Translations under genes and position numbers: made by a program | Part shown: in pieces, positions 15,442-38,140 of the stretch | How the letters are laid out: every line of letters starts with the position of its first letter | How positions within the stretch are numbered: position 1 is the first letter of the stretch | Notes under the pieces: model-generated | The model's input: only the letters and a program-made list of their open reading frames with translations | What the model was told of the DNA's origin: nothing | Databases searched by the model: none | From: Alteromonas abrolhosensis | GTDB lineage: Bacteria; Pseudomonadota; Gammaproteobacteria; Enterobacterales; Alteromonadaceae | NCBI RefSeq assembly: GCF_001953635.1 | Contig: NZ_MEJH01000004.1 | Location: 1-64,000, forward strand | Direction: 5' to 3' | DNA length: 64,000 nt

Positions 15442-16515
15442 CTAATAAATGAAGTGCAGCAGGCTTATAAAGTGAATTTGAATGTTCGCTGCCATACTTT
15501 CAATAGAATTGTCTGGAACTATCTGCACGGTAGCGCGAGCGCCACTGGTGAGGTGGTTTAACGATATGTCTTGTTCTTCAAGCTTAATGTGGACACGTTG
15601 GCGCTGCGCATCTCGTACCCATCGATTCGACTTTTCAACGCTTGCAAGGGTACCGTTGGCGGCGAGTTGGCCGTCGCTTACACCAGCTTCAAATTCTTCC
15701 ACTTTAGCTTCAAATACTTTGCCCGGTAGTGCATCAAAAACGACGTTAGCCCGAATGCCTTCTTTTACATTGGCGAGTGATTTCTCTCGAAAATCTGCAA
15801 CCACATCTAGTGTGTTATCGACAACTGAGGCAAGGGGCGTACTTTGTTTAGCATAAGTGCCTTGAGTTACCTGCATGTTTGCCATTATGCCGTCATGCGG
15901 TGCTTTAATTTTGGTATAGGCTAAGTTCAACTCTGCCCGTTTAACCGCATTTACCGCTTCTAGATATTTTAGGTTTTTGTCACCTTGCTTACCTCTTGCA
16001 ACAACTTGCTGGTTTAGGTCGGCTTCAAGCGCACTAATTTCAGCTTCAGCGCTTTTAAGTTGCGCGTACGCTTTGTCCACGTTTTGTTGAGATACCGCTC
16101 TAGTTTGAACTAAGGAATTAAGTCGTTGAAATTCACTGTTGCGTTCGTCGTAAACCGCCGATGCAGCCTCTATTTTGGCTCTAATCGCTTCCGCTTTTGC
16201 ATCTATCTGAGCGTTCTCTAACTCCACATTTGCCAAATCAATTTGCGCCTTTTCTAGCGCAATTAGGTAAGGTGTCTCATCTATAACAAATAAAACCTGC
16301 CCTTCCTTGACGGTTTGGTTATTTTTGACAAGCACCTCGTTTATCGGCCCATTTATCTGAGGAGAGATTTGTGTGACCTGATGATAGACTCTCGCCTGTG
16401 GTGTCATTGGCATGCGTATATCTGCAATAATAAAGTAGATAAAACAGATGGCAAAAGCGACTAAAGCCAGCTTTATGTACCTAGCAAATTCCTGATCTGG
16501 GGTTCGTTGACTCAC
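15442..16515 (-). CDS. HlyD/EmrA-type membrane-fusion (adaptor) protein
   Basis: A 357-residue adaptor with one N-terminal membrane segment (about 13-30). A biotinyl-lipoyl-like domain includes INGPINEVLVKNNQTVKEGQ. A long coiled-coil hairpin spans about 78-190, with a beta-barrel after LAYTKIKAPHDGIMANMQV. It should connect the DUF2955 pump to the outer face. It starts with GTG 16515, which overlaps the MarR stop (GTGA), indicating translational coupling. Confidence 0.9.
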   Translation of the reverse strand: MSQRTPDQEFARYIKLALVAFAICFIYFIIADIRMPMTPQARVYHQVTQISPQINGPINEVLVKNNQTVKEGQVLFVIDETPYLIALEKAQIDLANVELENAQIDAKAEAIRAKIEAASAVYDERNSEFQRLNSLVQTRAVSQQNVDKAYAQLKSAEAEISALEADLNQQVVARGKQGDKNLKYLEAVNAVKRAELNLAYTKIKAPHDGIMANMQVTQGTYAKQSTPLASVVDNTLDVVADFREKSLANVKEGIRANVVFDALPGKVFEAKVEEFEAGVSDGQLAANGTLASVEKSNRWVRDAQRQRVHIKLEEQDISLNHLTSGARATVQIVPDNSIESMAANIQIHFISLLHFIY

Positions 16516-25524: not shown

Positions 25525-25823
25525 TTGTGAGTAAAGTCGCTAGAGTAACCCTTCGGGTGCTCTAGCTTAGCAGCCAATAATATCGTTTCCATGCAGTCTT
25601 ATGACCGACATGCTTCAATGTCACTTCAATTTAAATAGAACGACTCGCACATAAGAAGCAACGCACTTCATCTTGCTAACAGCTCCTCAAGTCAAATAAG
25701 ACAATCAACTCTAATTCTTTCAAAATTTTAAAACCCACCCCATGTCCAGTCGTTATGGGTTTGGTGATGGGGTAGTGTAGCTAGGTGCATTCGCACATTA
25801 CTTATTTATAAAGGAGCTTAATT
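25525..25823. other. Upstream region of the double-glycine peptide cassette
   Basis: It starts with a hairpin, GCTAGAG-TAACCCTTCGGGTG-CTCTAGC (about 25539-25566), that may end the FMN reductase transcript (no T run). Near 25733-25776 it contains AACCCACCCCAT and ATGGGTTTGGTGATGGGGT, which can pair imperfectly. GTGC-ATTC-GCAC is a small hairpin near 25787. AAGGAGC at 25811-25817 is the ribosome-binding site of the first peptide. No unambiguous -35/-10 pair was assigned. Confidence 0.5.
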
Positions 25824-25994
25824 ATGGAAGAGCTAAGTTTGAATGAACTTAACGAAGTGTCAGGTGCGGGTTTAGTCGGCGATATAATGTATGGGATTGG
25901 TTATGGTGCCGGATACGCAGGGGGGTACTTTTACAGTAACGTGATGACATCAAACCAGTGGTTAGATGACGTTGCAGAACTCGTATTGCGATAA
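25824..25994 (+). CDS. Double-glycine-leader peptide 1 (candidate class II bacteriocin/microcin precursor)
   Basis: A 56-residue peptide that starts MEELSLNELNEVSGAG, a bacteriocin-type leader (E-L-x-x-V-S-G-G/A). Cleavage after Gly14-Ala15 would release a 41-residue peptide beginning GLVGDIMYG. The mature part is rich in Gly and Tyr with overlapping GxxxG motifs (Gly24-28, 26-30, 30-34), then a more polar tail with SNQWLDDVAELVLR. A strong ribosome-binding site (AAGGAG) lies 7 bases before the ATG. A second similar peptide gene follows after 10 bases. The leader family is established; antibacterial or signalling activity is inference. Confidence 0.75.
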   Translation: MEELSLNELNEVSGAGLVGDIMYGIGYGAGYAGGYFYSNVMTSNQWLDDVAELVLR

Positions 25995-26004
25995 GGAGAC
26001 AATT

Positions 26005-26160
26005 ATGGAGGAGTTAAACCAAGAAGAGCTAAGCCTGAGTAGTGGTGGCTATTGGAATCATGTATTGACCTACATGACACTATTAGACCTTGCTCATGAT
26101 ATCGGCAGGGGTCTTGGAGATGGGTTTTACGATGGCGTTCACTCGCCCCAAATTCCTTAG
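26005..26160 (+). CDS. Double-glycine-leader peptide 2 (candidate partner peptide)
   Basis: A 51-residue peptide with leader MEELNQEELSLSSGG. Cleavage after Gly14-Gly15 would give a 36-residue peptide YWNHVLTYMTLLDLAHD... that contains GxxxG motifs (Gly34-38, 36-40, 40-44) in DIGRGLGDGFYDG. The ATG at 26005 is chosen over an in-frame codon at 25966 because AAGGAGA sits 5 bases upstream and the leader then matches that of peptide 1. The start lies 10 bases after the stop of peptide 1, so the two are certainly in one transcript. Two adjacent peptides with GxxxG motifs resemble class IIb two-peptide bacteriocins. Confidence 0.75.
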   Translation: MEELNQEELSLSSGGYWNHVLTYMTLLDLAHDIGRGLGDGFYDGVHSPQIP

Positions 26161-26169
26161 TTCAGTCTG

Positions 26170-26193
26170 AGCAGACATTGGTCTGCTTTTTCT
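26170..26193 (+). terminator. Terminator or attenuator after the peptide pair
   Basis: AGCAGAC-ATTG-GTCTGCT followed by TTTTCT makes a compact hairpin 10 bases after the stop of peptide 2. It separates the two peptides from the small membrane protein and could reduce expression of the latter relative to the peptides. Confidence 0.75.
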
Positions 26194-26207: not shown

Positions 26208-26429
26208 ATGTTTAAAAAGACCATAATTATGAATGCAGCAAAATATAGCCAAATAGCATTTTGGTTTCTTGTGATAATAAATGTCATCTCCCTTTTAGAA
26301 AGCGTACTTCTAACTAATGGCTTTCCCATTCTGAAACAGCCGGAGTTTCAAAATTTACTTCTTCTCGCGGTTCTACATAAGTTATGGAAGAACAAAGGTA
26401 CAACGCAAAATAATGCCGATTCCAGCTAA
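26208..26429 (+). CDS. Small two-helix membrane protein (candidate immunity protein)
   Basis: A 73-residue protein from ATG 26208, or 66 residues from ATG 26229 (MNAAKYSQIAFWFLVIIN). Two hydrophobic stretches are visible: IAFWFLVIINVISLLESVLL and a shorter FQNLLLLAVLHKLW. The tail is polar. No strong ribosome-binding site is seen before either start. Small hydrophobic proteins directly after class II bacteriocin genes often confer self-immunity, and position is the main reason for this suggestion. It shows no recognisable domain. Confidence 0.55.
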   Translation: MFKKTIIMNAAKYSQIAFWFLVIINVISLLESVLLTNGFPILKQPEFQNLLLLAVLHKLWKNKGTTQNNADSS

Positions 26430-26619
26430 TTGAATATTATAATTATGTAGCGAGTTTAATGTTTTTTGTCGCTTGGTTTTGTTAGTTTAGAGAAGTGAAT
26501 ACTCGTCACTTACCCATTCAGCTAAAAGTACAATTGTTATTCATAAGTTTTGAGCTATTATTCTGACATACATACAAAAAGTATTCGATGAAACTCACTA
26601 TTTAGGTTCTCATTTATTG

Positions 26620-29600
26620 ATGTTAGCGCAGACCCGAGTAACCCCCTTTTTATCGACTCACTTATTACAAGTGACGTTAATATTTTTCTCGTTATTTATT
26701 TCTTCCGCACTTGCCCAACCCGTCGTAACAACGCCTTCCTTTAGAGCACTCTCTACCGAGAATGGGCTAAGTCAAAACACAGTTAACGATATGCTTATCG
26801 ATAAAGAGGGGTTGCTGTGGATAGCGACAGAAGCTGGCTTAAACAGATTCGATGGGAATCAAAACAAGCAATATGTAGGGCAAGACAATGAGTTTGCTGA
26901 TGATGGCATTTACTCGTTGTTCGAAGATCAAAGGGGTGACTTATGGGTAAGTACTTACAGTAGTGGTATTTATCGCATCAATCGACAAACGGGCAAGTCG
27001 AAAAGATTAATTAACGTTCCTTACAAAGATCAACCTTCATGGTACCAATATGCTTCCCATTTTATCTCCGCGCCTGGAAACATCATATATGTAGCCCTCG
27101 ACCATCTAATTATCAAATTCGATTTAGTTACAGAGAAAAAAGAAACCGTTTTTGACCTTCTTTCCTCGGATAGTGAGCTTTCAAATGACGATGTTATCCG
27201 ATACACCTATTTAACCCGCGACGTTTTATTCGTTGCCACTTCTGTAGGGCTTTATGCTAAAAACCTACAAACGGGCGATATTAAGAAAATTGACCACGTT
27301 AGTTCTGACAGTGCCAATGTAAATAATATCAATACCAAGCTTATCCTGGTTGATGAGCATCAGAGGTTTTGGCTGGGCACGGTTGAAGGTCTTTATCAAT
27401 TTGATTTTGCTGGTTTAATAAATTTCGTGAAGCACGACAGCGATGTTCCAACAGCAAAACAAGTCGTAAAATCTTTGAACATATGGGATCTCGAATTAAT
27501 AGAAAACTCCCTTTATTACATGCCCACTGACCAAGGGTTGTATACCATTGATTTGTCATCTAACGAGCTAACACATTTATTTAGACCATCAGACTCGCGG
27601 TTACAAATAACAGACGATGACTTGTACAAAGTGGAAATAACATCAGATGAGCAGGTGTGGCTTTCTACTGGCACATCGGGGGTATTGCTATGGTCACCTC
27701 AGTCTACGCTATTTAAAAACGTCATGGGCGATGGAAAAAGTAGTGAAAAGTTGAGTAATAATATTGTCTATAGCTTATATGAGACCGATGACGAAAATTT
27801 ATGGTTAGGGACTAACAATGGTCTGAATTTGTATCATGCAGATACTGGGAAAGTAGAGCAGTTTTTAGTGACCGACGATGATAAAGCCGTTATTTCTTCG
27901 GGCTCAATATTTACGATTAGACCCGCCGAAAAAGACCGGGTTTGGTTGCTTACTTACGGTAGCATTGTAAAGTTTGATACGGAAAATAAACGCCCTGTAC
28001 CTTATCCTTTAGGTAGCCAGCAAGACAAACTATTAAATTCAGACAAGGCATACGACTTAATTCGCACATCAAAAGAAAATTATATCGTTGCCTCAGATGG
28101 CAAGTTTTGGAATTTTGATGACAAGAAAGGGCAAGTATCCCTTTCCGAAACACTTTCTTCAAACCTGGAATACGACCAGTTTTATACGTTTTTACCTGAT
28201 CATGGGGCGCAGGATGGTTCAATACTACTGTCTATGATTGGGGAACTATGGCGATATAACGCGTCAAGCGGAAGCCTAGAAAAACTGCACCAAGCGAGAA
28301 AGTCTCAATCGGAATATGCAATCCATCCTACCGATACTATTTTGGATGATAACGGTATTTTGTGGATTACTTATCCCGGTCATGGGTTATACGGAATCGA
28401 TGCAAAAACCAATGAGCAAAAATACTTTTTTGACACGAGTAACTTATTGCCGACTAACCTTGTTGTTAGTTTAGAGAAAGATCGAAATGGTGATATCTGG
28501 ATTGGGAGCCACCAAGGCATCCTCAAGCTCGATCCGAAGGCCATTAAATTATCGCAATATAGCGCTACAGAAGGTTTGTCCACTAGTGAGTTCAGCTGGG
28601 GGGCAAAAGTAGGTTTGAGCGATGGAAAAATAGCGTTCGGTTCACAAAAAGGTTTCACTATTTTGCAACCAGAGCGCTTTAATGACCAAGACAATGTGAC
28701 AACCTCGACATTTATTACTGATGCAAGCTTGCTCAGTCAGCCGTTAGAGCTTGGTATTGGCAGCATTAATGACAGTTCATTATTATTAGAGTATGACGAT
28801 GTTGGGCTGACTATTCACTATTCCGATATGCGTTTTAAAAAGACATCGGCTTCCTACTATCAGTATGAATTAAAGGGAGATGTTTCTGTTGTATACCCCC
28901 CTACAAAGTCTACCGAAGTCACATTCCCTCAGTTAGAGCCTGGTGAATACGAATTTAGTGTGGGTCGAATTGACCCCGTTAGTAACGTTTACGGGCCGCG
29001 CGCAAATTTGAAAATCAAGGTGGCATATCCAATTTATGCATCGCCTTTGGCGTATTCTATTTATTTTCTTGTTTTCCTTGTGTCGACCTTAATTATCTAC
29101 ACACGACGCAAGAAAAACAGCGAAGCACTTCGCGCTGCACATTCAGAGGCACTAAAACATAAAAACAGATTGTCTATGGCGCTAACTGCGAGCAATACCA
29201 AAGTTTGGGCATGGTATGAGGACTCAGACAAAATTACTCAAGAGCGTATTGTGGATGACCTAGGTTACTCAGAGACGGGAACAAGATTGTCGTTCAGAGA
29301 GCATATATCTCTCGTTCATAAACACGATATTACTGCGTTCTTAGAACAATGGGAGAAAGCGGTCAGCGGACAGTCTAAAGGTATTGATATCAGCTATCGA
29401 ATGAAAGCGAAAGACGGTCATTATGAGTGGTTTAGAGATGTGGGCTCTTTAGTTTTTAACAATCAAACAGATAGCAGTAAAAGGTTAGTCGGTACCTACT
29501 CCAATATAACTGAGTCGGTGAATGCTGAATTCAAAGCAAGACTATTCGGTGAAGCATTTCAGTATACTCGAGACTGGGTTGTTATCTTCGATAACAATTT

Positions 29601-31221
29601 TCAGGCTATCGTTGTCAATCAATCTTTCAAAGACGCGCTAGGCATTAACAAAGACGCAAACCTAATAGAAGAGCTAGACCTGTTATATCGTGGCCAGAAA
29701 CAGCAGCTCGAAGAAGCGTATACGGAAATGCGTAAGCTCGGTCCTAATGAACACTGGAGTGGCGAGGCCTATATAAACAGTTTCACAAACCAGCGCTACG
29801 CGGTAAGTATAAGGGTGACCGCAGTTTCGAGTGAGCGAAATGGCCAAGAAATTGATCGCTACCTGGTGATACTGTCGGATATAACGCAGCAAAAAGACGC
29901 ACAAAACGCACTTGTTCAGTTGGCAAACTACGACAGTTTAACAGGTCTACCTAATCGAACTCTTCTGCTTGACCGCCTGCAGCACGCTTTCTATCAAGCT
30001 GCACCACAACAAAACAGAATAGGGTTATTCTTCATCGATTTAGACCGTTTCAAACAAGTTAACGATAGCCTTGGGCACGAGGCCGGTGATGAACTCCTAG
30101 TAACGGTTAGCAAACGTCTCGAAAAGTTAATCAGAAAGTCTGACACGGTAGCGAGACTTGGCGGTGATGAATTTGTGGTTCTTCTCGAAGGTGTTGGTAG
30201 TGTGCAGGACCTTGGTCATATTGCCAATGATATTATACAAGCCTTGGGGCAACCTATTACGCTCTCCAACCAAGAAGTGAGCGTATCGGCGAGTATTGGT
30301 ATTTCACTATATCCAGATGATGCGCAACTTCCAGCAGAATTACTAAAGAATGCCGATATTGCCATGTACCATGCTAAAGAAGCCGGCAGCAATAATTTTC
30401 AGTTCTTTACCGAGCACATGAATGAGCAGGCGCGTTCAAAACTTCAATTAGAAAATAAATTGAAACATGCCTGCATCAATAAATCTTTTTCAAACTACTA
30501 TCAGCCTATTGTGTGTTGCGCGACAGGTACTATTGAAGGCTTTGAAGTATTGATGAGATGGAAAGACGGTGAAGAAATGATCTCACCCGATATTTTCATT
30601 CCAGTTGCGGAAAACATCGGCATGATAGCCGAAATGACGACGCAACTTATTGAGCGAGCTTTACCTGTTCATAAGCAACTGTACGCAGATAATAGTCGCG
30701 CTTACTTATCGATTAATTTAAGCGCAAAACACCTCATAAATGAGTATTCTTTAAGGGATATAGTGGCGCTGTTGCAATCAAATGGTGTTCCACCAGAAAA
30801 CATTCGATTTGAAATTACAGAGAGCGCATTGATGGAAGATTATGACAGTGCCATGCATGTCATAGGAGCGCTAAAATCTAAAGGGTTTATCATAGCACTG
30901 GACGACTTTGGTACTGGGTACTCGTCGTTAAAATATTTAAAAGATTTCCCGATTGACGTATTAAAAATAGATAAGAGCTTTGTTCAGGGTATTGGCCTTA
31001 ATAGTGGCAATGAAGCAATTATTCTAGCGACATTACGTATGGCTGAGAGTCTGAATATTGAATGTGTGGCGGAAGGGATTGAGACCTTGGAGCAGGTCGA
31101 ATTCTTTCAACGAAACGGCTGCAGGTATTTGCAGGGCTTTTATTTCTCTAAACCTGTCGCCGCTGACAAGCTATCAGGCTTAATAAACGCAATGAAAACG
31201 AACGGCAAGTCGCTAAACTAA
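26620..31221 (+). CDS. Propeller-sensor PAS-GGDEF-EAL c-di-GMP enzyme
   Basis: A 1533-residue membrane sensor that should make and/or degrade cyclic di-GMP. In order: signal peptide (about 1-33, ending SSALAQ); two blocks of two-component-regulator propeller repeats (LWIATEAGLNRFDG and similar); a Y_Y_Y domain; a membrane helix (about 807-828); and two PAS domains (about 850-1100). GGDEF follows (about 1181) with an intact RxxD inhibitory site five residues earlier (RKSD-TVARL-GGDEF). The EAL domain carries EVLMR, FEITES, DDFGTGYSS and LKIDKSF, all consistent with activity. ATG 26620 is preferred over the preceding TTG. The signal sensed is unknown, perhaps a polysaccharide breakdown product. 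Confidence 0.92.
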   Translation: MLAQTRVTPFLSTHLLQVTLIFFSLFISSALAQPVVTTPSFRALSTENGLSQNTVNDMLIDKEGLLWIATEAGLNRFDGNQNKQYVGQDNEFADDGIYSLFEDQRGDLWVSTYSSGIYRINRQTGKSKRLINVPYKDQPSWYQYASHFISAPGNIIYVALDHLIIKFDLVTEKKETVFDLLSSDSELSNDDVIRYTYLTRDVLFVATSVGLYAKNLQTGDIKKIDHVSSDSANVNNINTKLILVDEHQRFWLGTVEGLYQFDFAGLINFVKHDSDVPTAKQVVKSLNIWDLELIENSLYYMPTDQGLYTIDLSSNELTHLFRPSDSRLQITDDDLYKVEITSDEQVWLSTGTSGVLLWSPQSTLFKNVMGDGKSSEKLSNNIVYSLYETDDENLWLGTNNGLNLYHADTGKVEQFLVTDDDKAVISSGSIFTIRPAEKDRVWLLTYGSIVKFDTENKRPVPYPLGSQQDKLLNSDKAYDLIRTSKENYIVASDGKFWNFDDKKGQVSLSETLSSNLEYDQFYTFLPDHGAQDGSILLSMIGELWRYNASSGSLEKLHQARKSQSEYAIHPTDTILDDNGILWITYPGHGLYGIDAKTNEQKYFFDTSNLLPTNLVVSLEKDRNGDIWIGSHQGILKLDPKAIKLSQYSATEGLSTSEFSWGAKVGLSDGKIAFGSQKGFTILQPERFNDQDNVTTSTFITDASLLSQPLELGIGSINDSSLLLEYDDVGLTIHYSDMRFKKTSASYYQYELKGDVSVVYPPTKSTEVTFPQLEPGEYEFSVGRIDPVSNVYGPRANLKIKVAYPIYASPLAYSIYFLVFLVSTLIIYTRRKKNSEALRAAHSEALKHKNRLSMALTASNTKVWAWYEDSDKITQERIVDDLGYSETGTRLSFREHISLVHKHDITAFLEQWEKAVSGQSKGIDISYRMKAKDGHYEWFRDVGSLVFNNQTDSSKRLVGTYSNITESVNAEFKARLFGEAFQYTRDWVVIFDNNFQAIVVNQSFKDALGINKDANLIEELDLLYRGQKQQLEEAYTEMRKLGPNEHWSGEAYINSFTNQRYAVSIRVTAVSSERNGQEIDRYLVILSDITQQKDAQNALVQLANYDSLTGLPNRTLLLDRLQHAFYQAAPQQNRIGLFFIDLDRFKQVNDSLGHEAGDELLVTVSKRLEKLIRKSDTVARLGGDEFVVLLEGVGSVQDLGHIANDIIQALGQPITLSNQEVSVSASIGISLYPDDAQLPAELLKNADIAMYHAKEAGSNNFQFFTEHMNEQARSKLQLENKLKHACINKSFSNYYQPIVCCATGTIEGFEVLMRWKDGEEMISPDIFIPVAENIGMIAEMTTQLIERALPVHKQLYADNSRAYLSINLSAKHLINEYSLRDIVALLQSNGVPPENIRFEITESALMEDYDSAMHVIGALKSKGFIIALDDFGTGYSSLKYLKDFPIDVLKIDKSFVQGIGLNSGNEAIILATLRMAESLNIECVAEGIETLEQVEFFQRNGCRYLQGFYFSKPVAADKLSGLINAMKTNGKSLN

Positions 31222-35254: not shown

Positions 35255-38140
35255 TTGAAGTTTGTGTCTCTCATTTTTGCCCTTTGTTTGCTGTGGGCGA
35301 TTCCCATAGATGGCTTCTCGGCAGAGTCTTCTCAGCTCATGCCGCTCAACCGGTATTTCCCTCAGTCGTGGGGAACAAAAGACGGGCTCCCTCACAATAG
35401 TATTCACGCATTAGCACAAACGTCCAATGGGTATCTATGGGCAGGTACATGGGAAGGTGTTGCTCGGTTTAATGGTCATCAGTTCACCGTTTTTACCCGC
35501 GGCGAGCAAACAGGGCTACCAGACTCCGGCATACGAAGCTTGTACTATAATAAGCCTCGCGATGAGCTGCTTGTGGCTGGAAACCGAGGGGGCGTAGCGT
35601 CGCTTATCGAAGAGCAATGGCATGCTCAATCGCCGCTTTCTTCAATGGTTAATCATGCGTATAGAGACAGCCATGATGTGTTGTGGTTTGCGCTAGAAGA
35701 CACGGGTGTTGCAATGAGAATGCCTGACGGCACTCAAAAAGAGTACATTGTTACTTCAAGCGCCTATCGCATAATCGAAGACGGGAATGGGGTAATTTGG
35801 ATTGCAACAAATCAAGGTTTATTCAAATACATAAACGACAAATTTCAACCAGCTGTTCCAAACCATAAGGTACTCTCTGGGCCGTCGTTTACTCTGGCGC
35901 TAGATAGCGAACAGCGTGTCTTAGTTGGCACAGAGCACGGTGTTTGGCAGCAAAGAAACGGCACTTTTGTTCTACTTCACACCTCACTTGCCGATAAATC
36001 TATTAGCAGCATTTTACTTGATCATCAAAATAGCATTTGGGTAGGAACTATAAACCACGGCCTTTACCGGCTAAGTAATTTAGGCCTAGAAAAGCTGGAT
36101 GCGACAGCAGGCCTTCCCAACAATCGCGTTTTTTCACTGCTTGAAGATTTGGAGAAAAATATCTGGATTGGCACTAATGGTGGCTTGTTTAGATTACGTC
36201 GTGCGCTGTTTACGACATTTTCGCAAAATCAGGGAATGAGCGGGGATTTTTTGCGAACCGTTTTGCAAACCTCTGACGGCAAACTTCTATCGGGTGGAAG
36301 TGCTGGATTAGATATTTTTTTCAATGATGCATTTTCCGCTGCATCACTTAACACGGGTGAAGCGTTTTCTGTACTCAGCTTGGCAGAGGTCGATGAAGAT
36401 GTAACGTTAGTTGGCACCTACACAAAAGGTGTGCTGCGATATGAAAATGATCAACTTATTCCTTACCTAAATAGACATCTTGGACTGCCAAGTAATGAAG
36501 TCAGAGCCATTCTTTTAGCTAGCGACAACAGTATTTGGTATGCCACGGCGCAAGGGGTAGTGAAACAAACGCCGGATGGAATGCTAATCCATTTTAATGA
36601 AAAAAATGGGCTGCCAGCCCACTTTTCCATGGGATTGGCAGAAGACCGTGAAGGACGAATTTGGATTGCTACTGGAATTGGGCTCGCCTATATCCAACAG
36701 GATGTTGTGCACACTGTTTCATTTCCTGAATATTCAGATGCGCAGCACGCGTTCAGCTTCAGCGTGGTGGAATATGGTACGTGGATTACTACCGACCGAG
36801 GCCTTGCATATTTTGATAACGCTACTCAGTCACTTAGTGTAGTAGAGAAATCGCATGGGCTTCCCGTAGACAAGCTTTTTTCAATCGGTATAGATCATAA
36901 TCGCGGAGTATGGCTAAGTTCAAACCAAGGGGTAATCCTGACTTCGCTAGAAAGTCTAGAGAAGTGTTTGACGCTTCCAGGTACGTTACTGGAATACGAA
37001 CACTTCAAGGAAGAAAATGGCCTAGCCAGTATTCAGATAAATGGTGGGTCCCAACCATCTCAGTTTGTAGATAAAGACGGTAACGTTTGGCTTCCCACTG
37101 CAAAGGGGCTGGCTACAGTAACGCCTGCAAACCTTGCCATGTTGAGTGAATTTCCTATTCCGGTAAACATAGAATCCGTATTGCTGGACGGCCATGTACA
37201 GCAATTAGACAAGGGTAAAAAGGAGCTAGAAGTCTCGCCGTTAACAACGCGAGTTGCGTTTCAATACGCAGGGTTGGGTTTCGCCATGCCTTCGCGTATA
37301 GAGTATCAGGCTATGTTAGTAGGATATGATCAAGATTGGGTTAATCGTCATCAATTTAGAATGACTGAATACACTAATTTAGCGCCTGGCCGTTATCAGT
37401 TCAAAGTTCGAGCCCGATACGCCGGAGGACATTGGCAAGAGATAACGTCGCCATTTCCCATTCGTGTTCTGCCCAGTGTTTATCAGACATTTGGTTTCAA
37501 GCTCTTTATATTTCTTTTCTTTTGTTCAGTTATCTATGTGCTTTATAAAGTGCGCTTTCATCATTTGAAAAAATCAGAAATGATTCTAAAGCAGAGGGTG
37601 GATGAGCAAACCAAGTCATTAGAAATACAAACTAAGCGGTTCGAGTTTCAAGCAACTCATGATGATCTAACCGGCATTGCGAACCGGCGAGCATTCGACC
37701 GCTGGCTTTTACAGTATTTCGACGATGCCAAAATGAGACAGGCACCTTTATGCCTAGCCGTTATCGATATCGACCATTTCAAGCAAGTGAATGACCAGTA
37801 CTCTCATCTAGTAGGAGATAAAGTCATTACCGAAGTGGCCCGAATATTAAAACGTGAAGTCCCTCATTACGCTAAATGTGCGCGCTGGGGCGGCGAAGAG
37901 TTTACTGTTTTACTCCCCGATTATGACTTGGCAAATGCGAAGACAGTCATGGAAAATGTTCGAAAAATCGTGGCAGCGCATGATTTCAGTTTAATAGCGT
38001 CAACGCTAAAGGTCACAATCAGTATTGGCCTTGCGAGCGTGGATGGTGCTAAAGATCATGACAGAATGTTAACCCATGCAGACCAAGCACTTTATACTGC
38101 AAAAGAAAATGGCCGCAACCAAGTGACCATTTTCGAGTGA
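35255..38140 (+). CDS. Propeller-sensor diguanylate cyclase (GGEEF)
   Basis: A 961-residue membrane sensor that should synthesise cyclic di-GMP. It has a signal peptide (KFVSLIFALCLLWAIPIDGFSA) and two seven-bladed sets of regulator-propeller repeats (WGTKDGLPHNSIHALAQ, GYLWAGTWEGVARFNG and others). A Y_Y_Y domain (YQAMLVGYDQDWVNR), a membrane helix (about 747-768), a short coiled coil and a GGDEF domain with active-site GGEEF (about 878) follow. The RxxD inhibitory site is absent (PHYA in its place). The start is TTG 35255, because it keeps the Lys of the signal peptide; GTG 35264 is an alternative. Confidence 0.9.
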   Translation: MKFVSLIFALCLLWAIPIDGFSAESSQLMPLNRYFPQSWGTKDGLPHNSIHALAQTSNGYLWAGTWEGVARFNGHQFTVFTRGEQTGLPDSGIRSLYYNKPRDELLVAGNRGGVASLIEEQWHAQSPLSSMVNHAYRDSHDVLWFALEDTGVAMRMPDGTQKEYIVTSSAYRIIEDGNGVIWIATNQGLFKYINDKFQPAVPNHKVLSGPSFTLALDSEQRVLVGTEHGVWQQRNGTFVLLHTSLADKSISSILLDHQNSIWVGTINHGLYRLSNLGLEKLDATAGLPNNRVFSLLEDLEKNIWIGTNGGLFRLRRALFTTFSQNQGMSGDFLRTVLQTSDGKLLSGGSAGLDIFFNDAFSAASLNTGEAFSVLSLAEVDEDVTLVGTYTKGVLRYENDQLIPYLNRHLGLPSNEVRAILLASDNSIWYATAQGVVKQTPDGMLIHFNEKNGLPAHFSMGLAEDREGRIWIATGIGLAYIQQDVVHTVSFPEYSDAQHAFSFSVVEYGTWITTDRGLAYFDNATQSLSVVEKSHGLPVDKLFSIGIDHNRGVWLSSNQGVILTSLESLEKCLTLPGTLLEYEHFKEENGLASIQINGGSQPSQFVDKDGNVWLPTAKGLATVTPANLAMLSEFPIPVNIESVLLDGHVQQLDKGKKELEVSPLTTRVAFQYAGLGFAMPSRIEYQAMLVGYDQDWVNRHQFRMTEYTNLAPGRYQFKVRARYAGGHWQEITSPFPIRVLPSVYQTFGFKLFIFLFFCSVIYVLYKVRFHHLKKSEMILKQRVDEQTKSLEIQTKRFEFQATHDDLTGIANRRAFDRWLLQYFDDAKMRQAPLCLAVIDIDHFKQVNDQYSHLVGDKVITEVARILKREVPHYAKCARWGGEEFTVLLPDYDLANAKTVMENVRKIVAAHDFSLIASTLKVTISIGLASVDGAKDHDRMLTHADQALYTAKENGRNQVTIFE

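Follow-up and report, generated by a model that had tools for sequence, protein, structure and literature searches.

Closest described systems

To our knowledge, two-peptide bacteriocins of class IIb are known from Gram-positive bacteria. In lactococcin G (alpha/beta) and enterocin 1071A/B, adjacent peptides with double-glycine (GG) leaders and GxxxG motifs are accompanied by a membrane immunity gene; the lagABC gene order is peptide, peptide, immunity, the same as that of the cassette described below. The Gram-positive class IIb peptides are cationic as a rule, which is not strictly defining, and an exporter gene within the cluster is typical. A class IIb system kills by both peptides together, at a roughly equimolar ratio. 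Class II microcins of the microcin V type, as described from Enterobacterales, are, as far as we know, single peptides. According to class II microcin mining, they come with a C39 peptidase ABC transporter (PCAT), an HlyD-type partner, and a small adjacent membrane immunity protein (PMC9746304, PMC10233263). TolC and a catalytic Cys/His/Asp triad in PCAT also belong to the general class II microcin pattern. In microcin naming, a 'class IIb microcin' is a siderophore-linked one, not a two-peptide system.

The nearest described Gram-negative cases that we met are the Cdz system of Caulobacter and the Nap peptides of Neisseria gonorrhoeae. CdzC and CdzD are described as secreted small glycine-zipper proteins of 86 and 84 aa, with a linked type I secretion system and a small membrane immunity protein, CdzI, that form aggregates on the cell surface (PMC5380434). 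The nap island, as its authors present it, encodes three cationic GG peptides with a role in autolysis and a putative immunity protein, NapI, that resembles a LagC domain, a hint of likeness to lactococcin G (PMC11798529). In the literature surveyed, mostly without full texts, we found no two-peptide bacteriocin reported from Alteromonas. The available part of an Alteromonas genome note mentions antiSMASH-predicted clusters 'such as bacteriocin' and gives no details (PMC5289672), and the available part of a deep-sea fish study, mostly of Pseudoalteromonas, names no two-peptide system (PMC10456417).

The locus analyzed here lies in a window of 64,000 nucleotides from Alteromonas abrolhosensis, part of one contig (C23) of a 4.43 Mb genome. 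We consider it quite likely to be an accessory three-gene cassette for a two-peptide (class IIb-like) bacteriocin, in which two peptide genes (pep1 and pep2) are followed by an immunity gene (orf3) and export occurs in trans. Like lactococcin G and enterocin 1071, it has two different, adjacent small peptides, double-glycine-type leaders, GxxxG motifs in both mature peptides, and a candidate membrane immunity gene. It differs from them in its Gram-negative host, in having no exporter gene in the cluster, and in its mature peptides, which are both acidic (net charge −3 each), an observation that speaks against our reading. At 66 aa, orf3 is also smaller than LagC, given as 110 aa (PMC6957408), and has no match in Pfam or NCBIfam. 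The class II microcins are larger than the cassette peptides; the likeness to them extends to the leader, through a weak match to the microcin V family model PF17508 (15.1 bits, short of the gathering score of 27). Cdz was compared with the cassette by description only.

Organization of the cassette

An earlier note on this DNA had placed two ORFs of 56 and 51 codons 10 bases apart, each behind a good ribosome-binding site. These coordinates proved exact, with the spacer at 25995–26004 and AAGGAG at both ribosome-binding sites; to the two ORFs are now added orf3 and a terminator-like hairpin (Table 1).

Table 1. Features of the cassette, with positions in the window
Feature	Position	Strand	Remarks
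Conserved palindrome GTGCATTCGCAC	25785–25796	+	Ends 27 bases before the pep1 start
Ribosome-binding site of pep1, AAGGAG	25811–25816	+	Invariant in 5/5 orthologous upstream regions
pep1	25824–25994	+	56 codons/aa, ATG start; orthologs in four further Alteromonas genomes
Ribosome-binding site of pep2, AAGGAG	25993–25998	+	Overlaps the pep1 stop codon
pep2	26005–26160	+	51 codons/aa, ATG start; lactococcin G-beta-like precursor
Intrinsic-terminator-like hairpin GAGCAGACATTGGTCTGCTT and T run	26169–26188	+	Between pep2 and orf3; predicted
orf3	26229–26429	+	66-aa hydrophobic protein, candidate immunity protein; conserved in the cassettes

Related double-glycine leaders had been proposed for both precursors, and both were recovered. 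By sequence, the pep1 leader, MEELSLNELNEVSGA, is of GA type with the cut before G, the pep2 leader, MEELNQEELSLSSGG, is of GG type with the cut before Y, and each type is kept in the orthologs. Both leaders have hydrophobic residues at −15, −12, and −7 relative to the cut, which is the PCAT substrate pattern; at −4, where most aligned leaders have a hydrophobic residue, the pep2 leader has Ser. On recomputation the predicted mature peptides had the expected lengths: 41 aa for pep1 (GLVGDIMYGIGYGAGYAGGYFYSNVMTSNQWLDDVAELVLR; average mass 4436.9 Da) and 36 aa for pep2 (YWNHVLTYMTLLDLAHDIGRGLGDGFYDGVHSPQIP; 4072.5 Da).

Each mature peptide contains three GxxxG motifs, as the earlier note had seen in both. 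The number in pep2 exceeds the expectation from composition (P = 0.004), and that in pep1, taken alone, is not significant (P = 0.098). One motif per type is invariant: G26-x3-G30 in all nine aligned rows of the pep1 type and G34-x3-G38 in all ten of the pep2 type. An invariant GYxxG is seen in the pep1 type, and the pep2 type has a GxGxYD close to its end. Across 12 non-redundant peptides of the pep1/pep2 family (family A), 31 GxxxG motifs were observed against 11.75 in shuffles; in another pair family (family B), just one of eight peptides contains the motif. The structure prediction for pep1 (pLDDT 70.6) was too low for a fold search. Matches of the cassette to solved structures were dismissed as chance, because their low E-values arose by adding up many weak repeats in designed repeat proteins.

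In the protein encoded by orf3, one stretch is clearly hydrophobic and another less so, and a low-confidence model (pLDDT 66, too low for a fold search) places helices at residues 3–30 and 38–58. No clear Shine-Dalgarno sequence for orf3 was seen in the window, and an in-frame upstream ATG at 26208 is a possible alternative start. The product of orf3 is probably the immunity protein for pep1 and pep2. The hairpin with its T's is predicted between pep2 and orf3 in all five known cassettes, with bases altered, and its sequence is kept in a genome that has orf3 alone (G023, below). The region upstream of pep1 is conserved as well, and the palindrome in it is possibly an operator; it takes the form GTGCATTNGCAC in 5/5 orthologous upstream regions and GTGCACGTGCAC in G023. 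No sigma-70-type promoter match was found upstream of pep1, and no RNA family at the cassette locus.

Conservation and selection

The DNA of the pair matched five of 59 Alteromonas genomes, that of the window included. The other four, at 71–79% identity and one per species, are Alteromonas sp. KUL106, A. marina AD001, Alteromonas sp. IB21, and A. gracilis 9a2. All five cassettes occupy one chromosomal site, and in all five a third ORF, orf3, follows the pair. Conserved pairing in relatives, to which the earlier note had looked, thus holds for the orthologs, and non-orthologous pairs were found in Alteromonas and in other genera (below).

Selection on the frames, a second point of the earlier note, was also borne out. 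Finite dN/dS ratios were 0.025–0.091 for pep1 (4/6 comparisons, the GTG-start pep1 of A. marina being left out), 0.047–0.21 for pep2 (8/10), 0.22–0.48 for orf3 (7/10), and 0.017–0.073 for the neighboring FMN reductase (10/10), values that are rough because dS was saturated in the remaining comparisons. Both peptide genes are under purifying selection. The faster change of orf3 might fit an immunity gene but proves nothing.

The chromosomal neighborhood is likewise conserved. Before the cassette, RF3 and argS (both named by eye) and the FMN reductase gene are present in all four named relatives; within 10 kb after it, a PALP gene and an endonuclease-like gene are found in all four, DUF2891 in three, and a Reg_prop-GGDEF-EAL gene in two. 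Neither pep1 nor pep2 matched any of 72,556 plasmid records, and a search of viral contigs, made with the pep2 profile only, gave no confirmed match; with the conserved neighborhood, these results led us to reject a mobile origin. A MAG of Atribacteria contributed an apparent fifth locus (41% over 32 residues) beside the four Alteromonas orthologs; we set it aside as probably a chance match. In the window itself, two large Reg_prop sensors (26617–31221 and 35255–38140), ending in GGDEF-EAL and GGDEF, respectively, lie about 4 kb apart.

Alleles at the site

The FMN reductase gene, present in 54 of the 59 Alteromonas genomes, marked the site, and the best 30 of the 54 loci were scanned. Among these 30 were the five known cassettes and one locus, in G023, with orf3 alone. 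Alignment showed the upstream region, palindrome, hairpin, and orf3 of G023 in place and pep1 and pep2 missing from within, with what appear to be the last codons of pep2 remaining before the hairpin. A search of G023 with the pair DNA found no match elsewhere in the genome. Its orf3 is conserved, being 82% identical to the protein of G044 over 66 residues (dN 0.017, dS 0.143 over 49 codons). G023 looks like an immune non-producer, a state that predicts orf3 without the peptide genes. Though it is a single genome, no other finding speaks as strongly as this allele for protection by orf3 against pep1 and pep2.

Because two further genomes, G054 (L180:2376–2832) and G013 (L182:2372–2830), carry a different, Cys-containing 73-aa GG peptide and a 55-aa ORF behind the FMN reductase gene, the site seemingly takes alternative modules. 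In G021 and G028, no GG peptide was found at the site, which holds the downstream neighbors only.

The distribution of alleles bears on two alternatives to the preferred reading; the likelihoods that we attach to these and later alternatives overlap with one another and with that of the preferred reading, and need not add up to certainty. The first is self-directed lysis of the producer population in stationary phase, with orf3 setting the threshold. The nap island offers the precedent, in that its GG peptides and LagC-like candidate immunity protein are reported to mediate autolysis (PMC11798529). We consider such a role very unlikely for a cassette that is accessory (5/59 genomes), whose peptides are acidic where the Nap peptides are cationic, and whose orf3 occurs alone in G023, as protection against neighbors predicts. 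The second alternative, that pep1 and pep2 are pheromones for cell–cell signaling, draws on the fact that GG-leader peptides can be pheromones and on weak matches to the BlpC pheromone model (12.8 and 13.1 of 70 bits). The neighbors scanned included FMN reductase, the Reg_prop-GGDEF-EAL protein, DUF2891, and PALP; no histidine kinase or peptide receptor was recognized among them, though the downstream Reg_prop sensor has no known ligand. The retention of orf3 without peptides in G023 fits immunity better. We consider a signaling role highly improbable. The earlier note had proposed an antibacterial or signaling couple. The couple is supported as a class IIb-like pair by its conserved pairing, purifying selection, and relatives that pass curated class IIb models; 'signaling' is without support because no receptor or regulator was recognized beside pep1 and pep2.

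Match to curated bacteriocin models

Approximately 30 distinct natural precursors were scanned against curated models, and the window's own peptides scored below all cut-offs in Pfam and NCBIfam. Against NF038034 (lactococcin G-beta/enterocin 1071B; cut-off 37 bits), the pep2 of the window scored 20.4 bits and its orthologs 24.4, 33.4, 29.6, and, in A. gracilis, 39.6. One of the five pep2 orthologs, that of A. gracilis, is thus a formal member, and the window copy is not. An explanation of this match by the leader alone was rejected: the mature parts on their own matched in all five (E = 9.4e-4, 0.056 for the window, 2.5e-5, 2e-4, and 2.4e-6), and none of six reversed-mature controls did. The match covers 17–23 residues of the mature peptide, and the likeness could reflect either common descent or the convergent evolution of a short helix with GxxxG. 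The lactococcin G-alpha model was matched by none of the five pep1 orthologs and weakly (19.2 of 37 bits) by one pep1-type peptide of another genus.

TIGR03949 (class IIb, lactobin A/cerein 7B; cut-off 21.5) was passed by at least four of the precursors (24.7, 25.2, 23.0, and 25.5), and two more matched. The match of one precursor, L080, needs the leader, because its mature part alone was unmatched. Without their leaders, the mature parts of the non-orthologous L079, L080, and L084 matched no bacteriocin model. The leader model TIGR01847, which the earlier note had suggested as a check, did not pick out the pair: pep1 scored 12.7 bits against a cut-off of 15.7, and pep2 had no match. Because it is a leader model, a pass is uninformative on the mature peptide; two reversed-mature controls passed, with 18.4 and 18.8 bits. 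Overall, the class IIb-like reading of pep1 and pep2 is largely supported.

Exporter

No ABC exporter was found beside the cassette among nine flanking proteins scanned, the rest being judged by eye. An HlyD-like adaptor at 15442–16515, about 9.3 kb away, adjoins a DUF2955/FUSC protein and not an ABC gene. A search of the genome for C39 domains gave matches on contigs C3, C28, and C13 and none on the cassette contig. The C3 match (G000:C3:112296–114569; 125 bits) is a PCAT in which, judged by eye, the Cys, His, and Asp are all present; an HlyD gene lies just upstream. The C28 protein, a C39-ABC protein (42 bits) beside a long repetitive ORF, seems by eye to be without the catalytic Cys, and the C13 match is a 309-aa protein. 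We infer that the C3 PCAT is the best exporter candidate, and that it would act in trans on pep1 and pep2.

In a comparison with five other genomes, among them G023, the C3 PCAT was 78–86% identical. Strong C39 matches were present in 57 of the 59 Alteromonas genomes, with or without the cassette, and in all ten genomes of other genera that have a peptide hit. Because PCAT is near-universal in Alteromonas, its presence says little and does not single out pep1 and pep2.

The PCAT gene on C3 belongs to a locus of its own (L086:8041–13242), beside an hslU-like gene (named by eye), that consists of HlyD, PCAT, a GG peptide, and an ATP-grasp protein and is conserved at L112–L116, L119, and L121. 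The GG peptide ends in (K)EPVYITxAIGEGGGxLPDIL(S/A), a motif present in 7 of 16 other loci, with a near variant in L125. The ATP-grasp protein on C3 scored 99.6 bits with the ribosomal peptide maturase model TIGR04187, below the cut-off of 350. The locus looks like one for an ATP-grasp RiPP.

Tandem GG-peptide pairs in the wider family

Profiles run against 295 genomes of the bacterial family led to pairs of like make in Alteromonas and in other genera. Matches at E ≤ 1 occurred in 89 of the 295, nearly all of them chance by length and frame, and at E ≤ 0.001 in ten; membership of family A was established within Alteromonadaceae. A mixed pep2 profile (A5) at E ≤ 0.01 matched 14 of the 394 genomes searched from the order and 6 of the 369 from the class, several of the weak matches being leader-only. 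A leader profile (A8) gave 220 hits, by per-genome counts, in the 59 Alteromonas genomes. Among the matches listed were at least 18 same-strand GG-leader pairs within 300 bp, in 16 of the 59 genomes, against 0.03 expected; A8 was built partly from pairs that it then finds, and 10 of the at least 18 are independent of the A8 rows (G004, G007:C7, G014, G015, G018, G026, G037, G044:C13, G049, and G050). The tandem pairs split into several unrelated-looking families.

A hydrophobic ORF of 42–293 aa starts 0–81 nt after the second peptide in all 20 pair loci examined (L002, which is the window, L075–L077, L079, L082, L083, L085, L089, L090, L128–L136, and L143), a count that includes orthologous copies (L130–L134 are one group, L135–L136 another) and four ORFs whose hydropathy maximum is only 1.49–1.59. 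The 20 leave out L003–L006, all four with orf3; L137; L078, which duplicates L079; and L084, whose partner is unclear. In family C, a membrane ORF follows 5/5 pairs, counted without requiring a ribosome-binding site. At one pair locus the following ORF is a CPBP/Rce1-like protein, and another CPBP gene comes after the lone pep1-type peptide of G153. Class IIb immunity proteins are described as ranging from 42 residues and one helix up to four helices, some of them in the Abi family (PMC6957408); the CPBP/Rce1-like ORF belongs to this family and counts for the pair layout.

Further loci show variations. The pep2-type frame of L077 (G007:C1:519936–520204) has an internal stop; a pep1-type gene adjoins it, together with a third gene, and the locus may be a cassette in decay. 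At L137 (G037:C1:1569000–1588000), several GG-leader hits surround one of the genome's two PCATs. L130–L134 and L135–L136 encode glycine-very-rich GG-peptide pairs of 68–81 aa followed by a hydrophobic ORF of 104–124 aa, with conserved cysteines in L130–L134.

These loci also inform two other alternatives. That pep1 and pep2 are independent one-peptide microcins sharing an operon, not one two-peptide toxin, gains from the single GG-peptide modules with a small membrane ORF that exist in the genus, even at the same site (G054 and G013), and from a pep1-type gene in G153 (L081) that lies near a PCAT without a detected partner. Against such independence, genes of the two types repeatedly turn up together, in both orders (L075 versus L076), each type has its invariant GxxxG, and one small third gene follows both; we think it unlikely.

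The other alternative, a surface-held, contact-dependent bacteriocin of the CdzC/CdzD kind, with glycine-zipper aggregates and a CdzI-like orf3, differs from the preferred reading less in kind than in mode of action and overlaps with it. The layout agrees with that of Cdz, in which small Gly-rich secreted proteins are encoded side by side and accompanied by a small immunity protein of the membrane, and predicted Cdz-like systems are reported to have leaders ending in G[GAS], to be widespread particularly in gammaproteobacteria, and to encode a neighboring pair of toxins in 14% of cases (PMC5380434). At 51 and 56 aa, however, the precursors fall below the 60–151 aa of the screen in that study, which also asks for a type I exporter within approximately 10 kb, and none was found beside the cassette among the flanking proteins scanned or judged by eye. 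The sequence match goes to class IIb models, though the Cdz authors report meeting class IIb proteins on further iteration (PMC5380434). Two Alteromonas pair families, C and D (L130–L136), fit Cdz better and are perhaps closer to Cdz-like toxins than pep1 and pep2 are. For the window's pair, we hold the Cdz-like mode to be quite unlikely.

Proposed mechanism and significance

Under the preferred reading of a two-peptide, class IIb-like bacteriocin, pep1 and pep2 would together form a microcin of two unmodified peptides. Their precursors would lose the double-glycine-type leaders during export by PCAT with its HlyD partner, both encoded elsewhere in the genome, on C3. Outside the cell, the peptides would pair as helices via their invariant GxxxG faces and permeabilize the inner membrane of closely related competitors. 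The producer would be protected by orf3 as a small inner-membrane immunity protein, which, behind a leaky terminator, would be expressed from the same promoter at a lower level.

Our claim to novelty is modest because Cdz and its predicted relatives (PMC5380434), the nap island (PMC11798529), and class II microcin mining (PMC9746304, PMC10233263), as far as these sources describe them, are close prior work. What we claim as new is an exporter-unlinked, acidic, lactococcin G-like variant with a candidate immunity-only allele. It places a pair resembling lactococcin G, together with its candidate immunity gene, in a Gram-negative genus of the sea. As its exporter is unlinked, screens that require one nearby would miss the cassette.

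The genotypes found at the site (full cassette, immunity only, and empty) suit the study of how producers and immune non-producers coexist in the sea. A broader reading, to which we give about even chances, is that Alteromonas has a plug-in weapon system with a shared exporter: the near-core PCAT, itself part of the conserved GG-peptide/ATP-grasp locus, would export many unlinked peptide–peptide–immunity cassettes, and at the site in the window producer species would coexist with an immune non-producer, with species that carry other modules, and with species whose site is empty. If this is true, the site would offer a natural series of producer, cheater, and sensitive genotypes in a marine Gram-negative genus.
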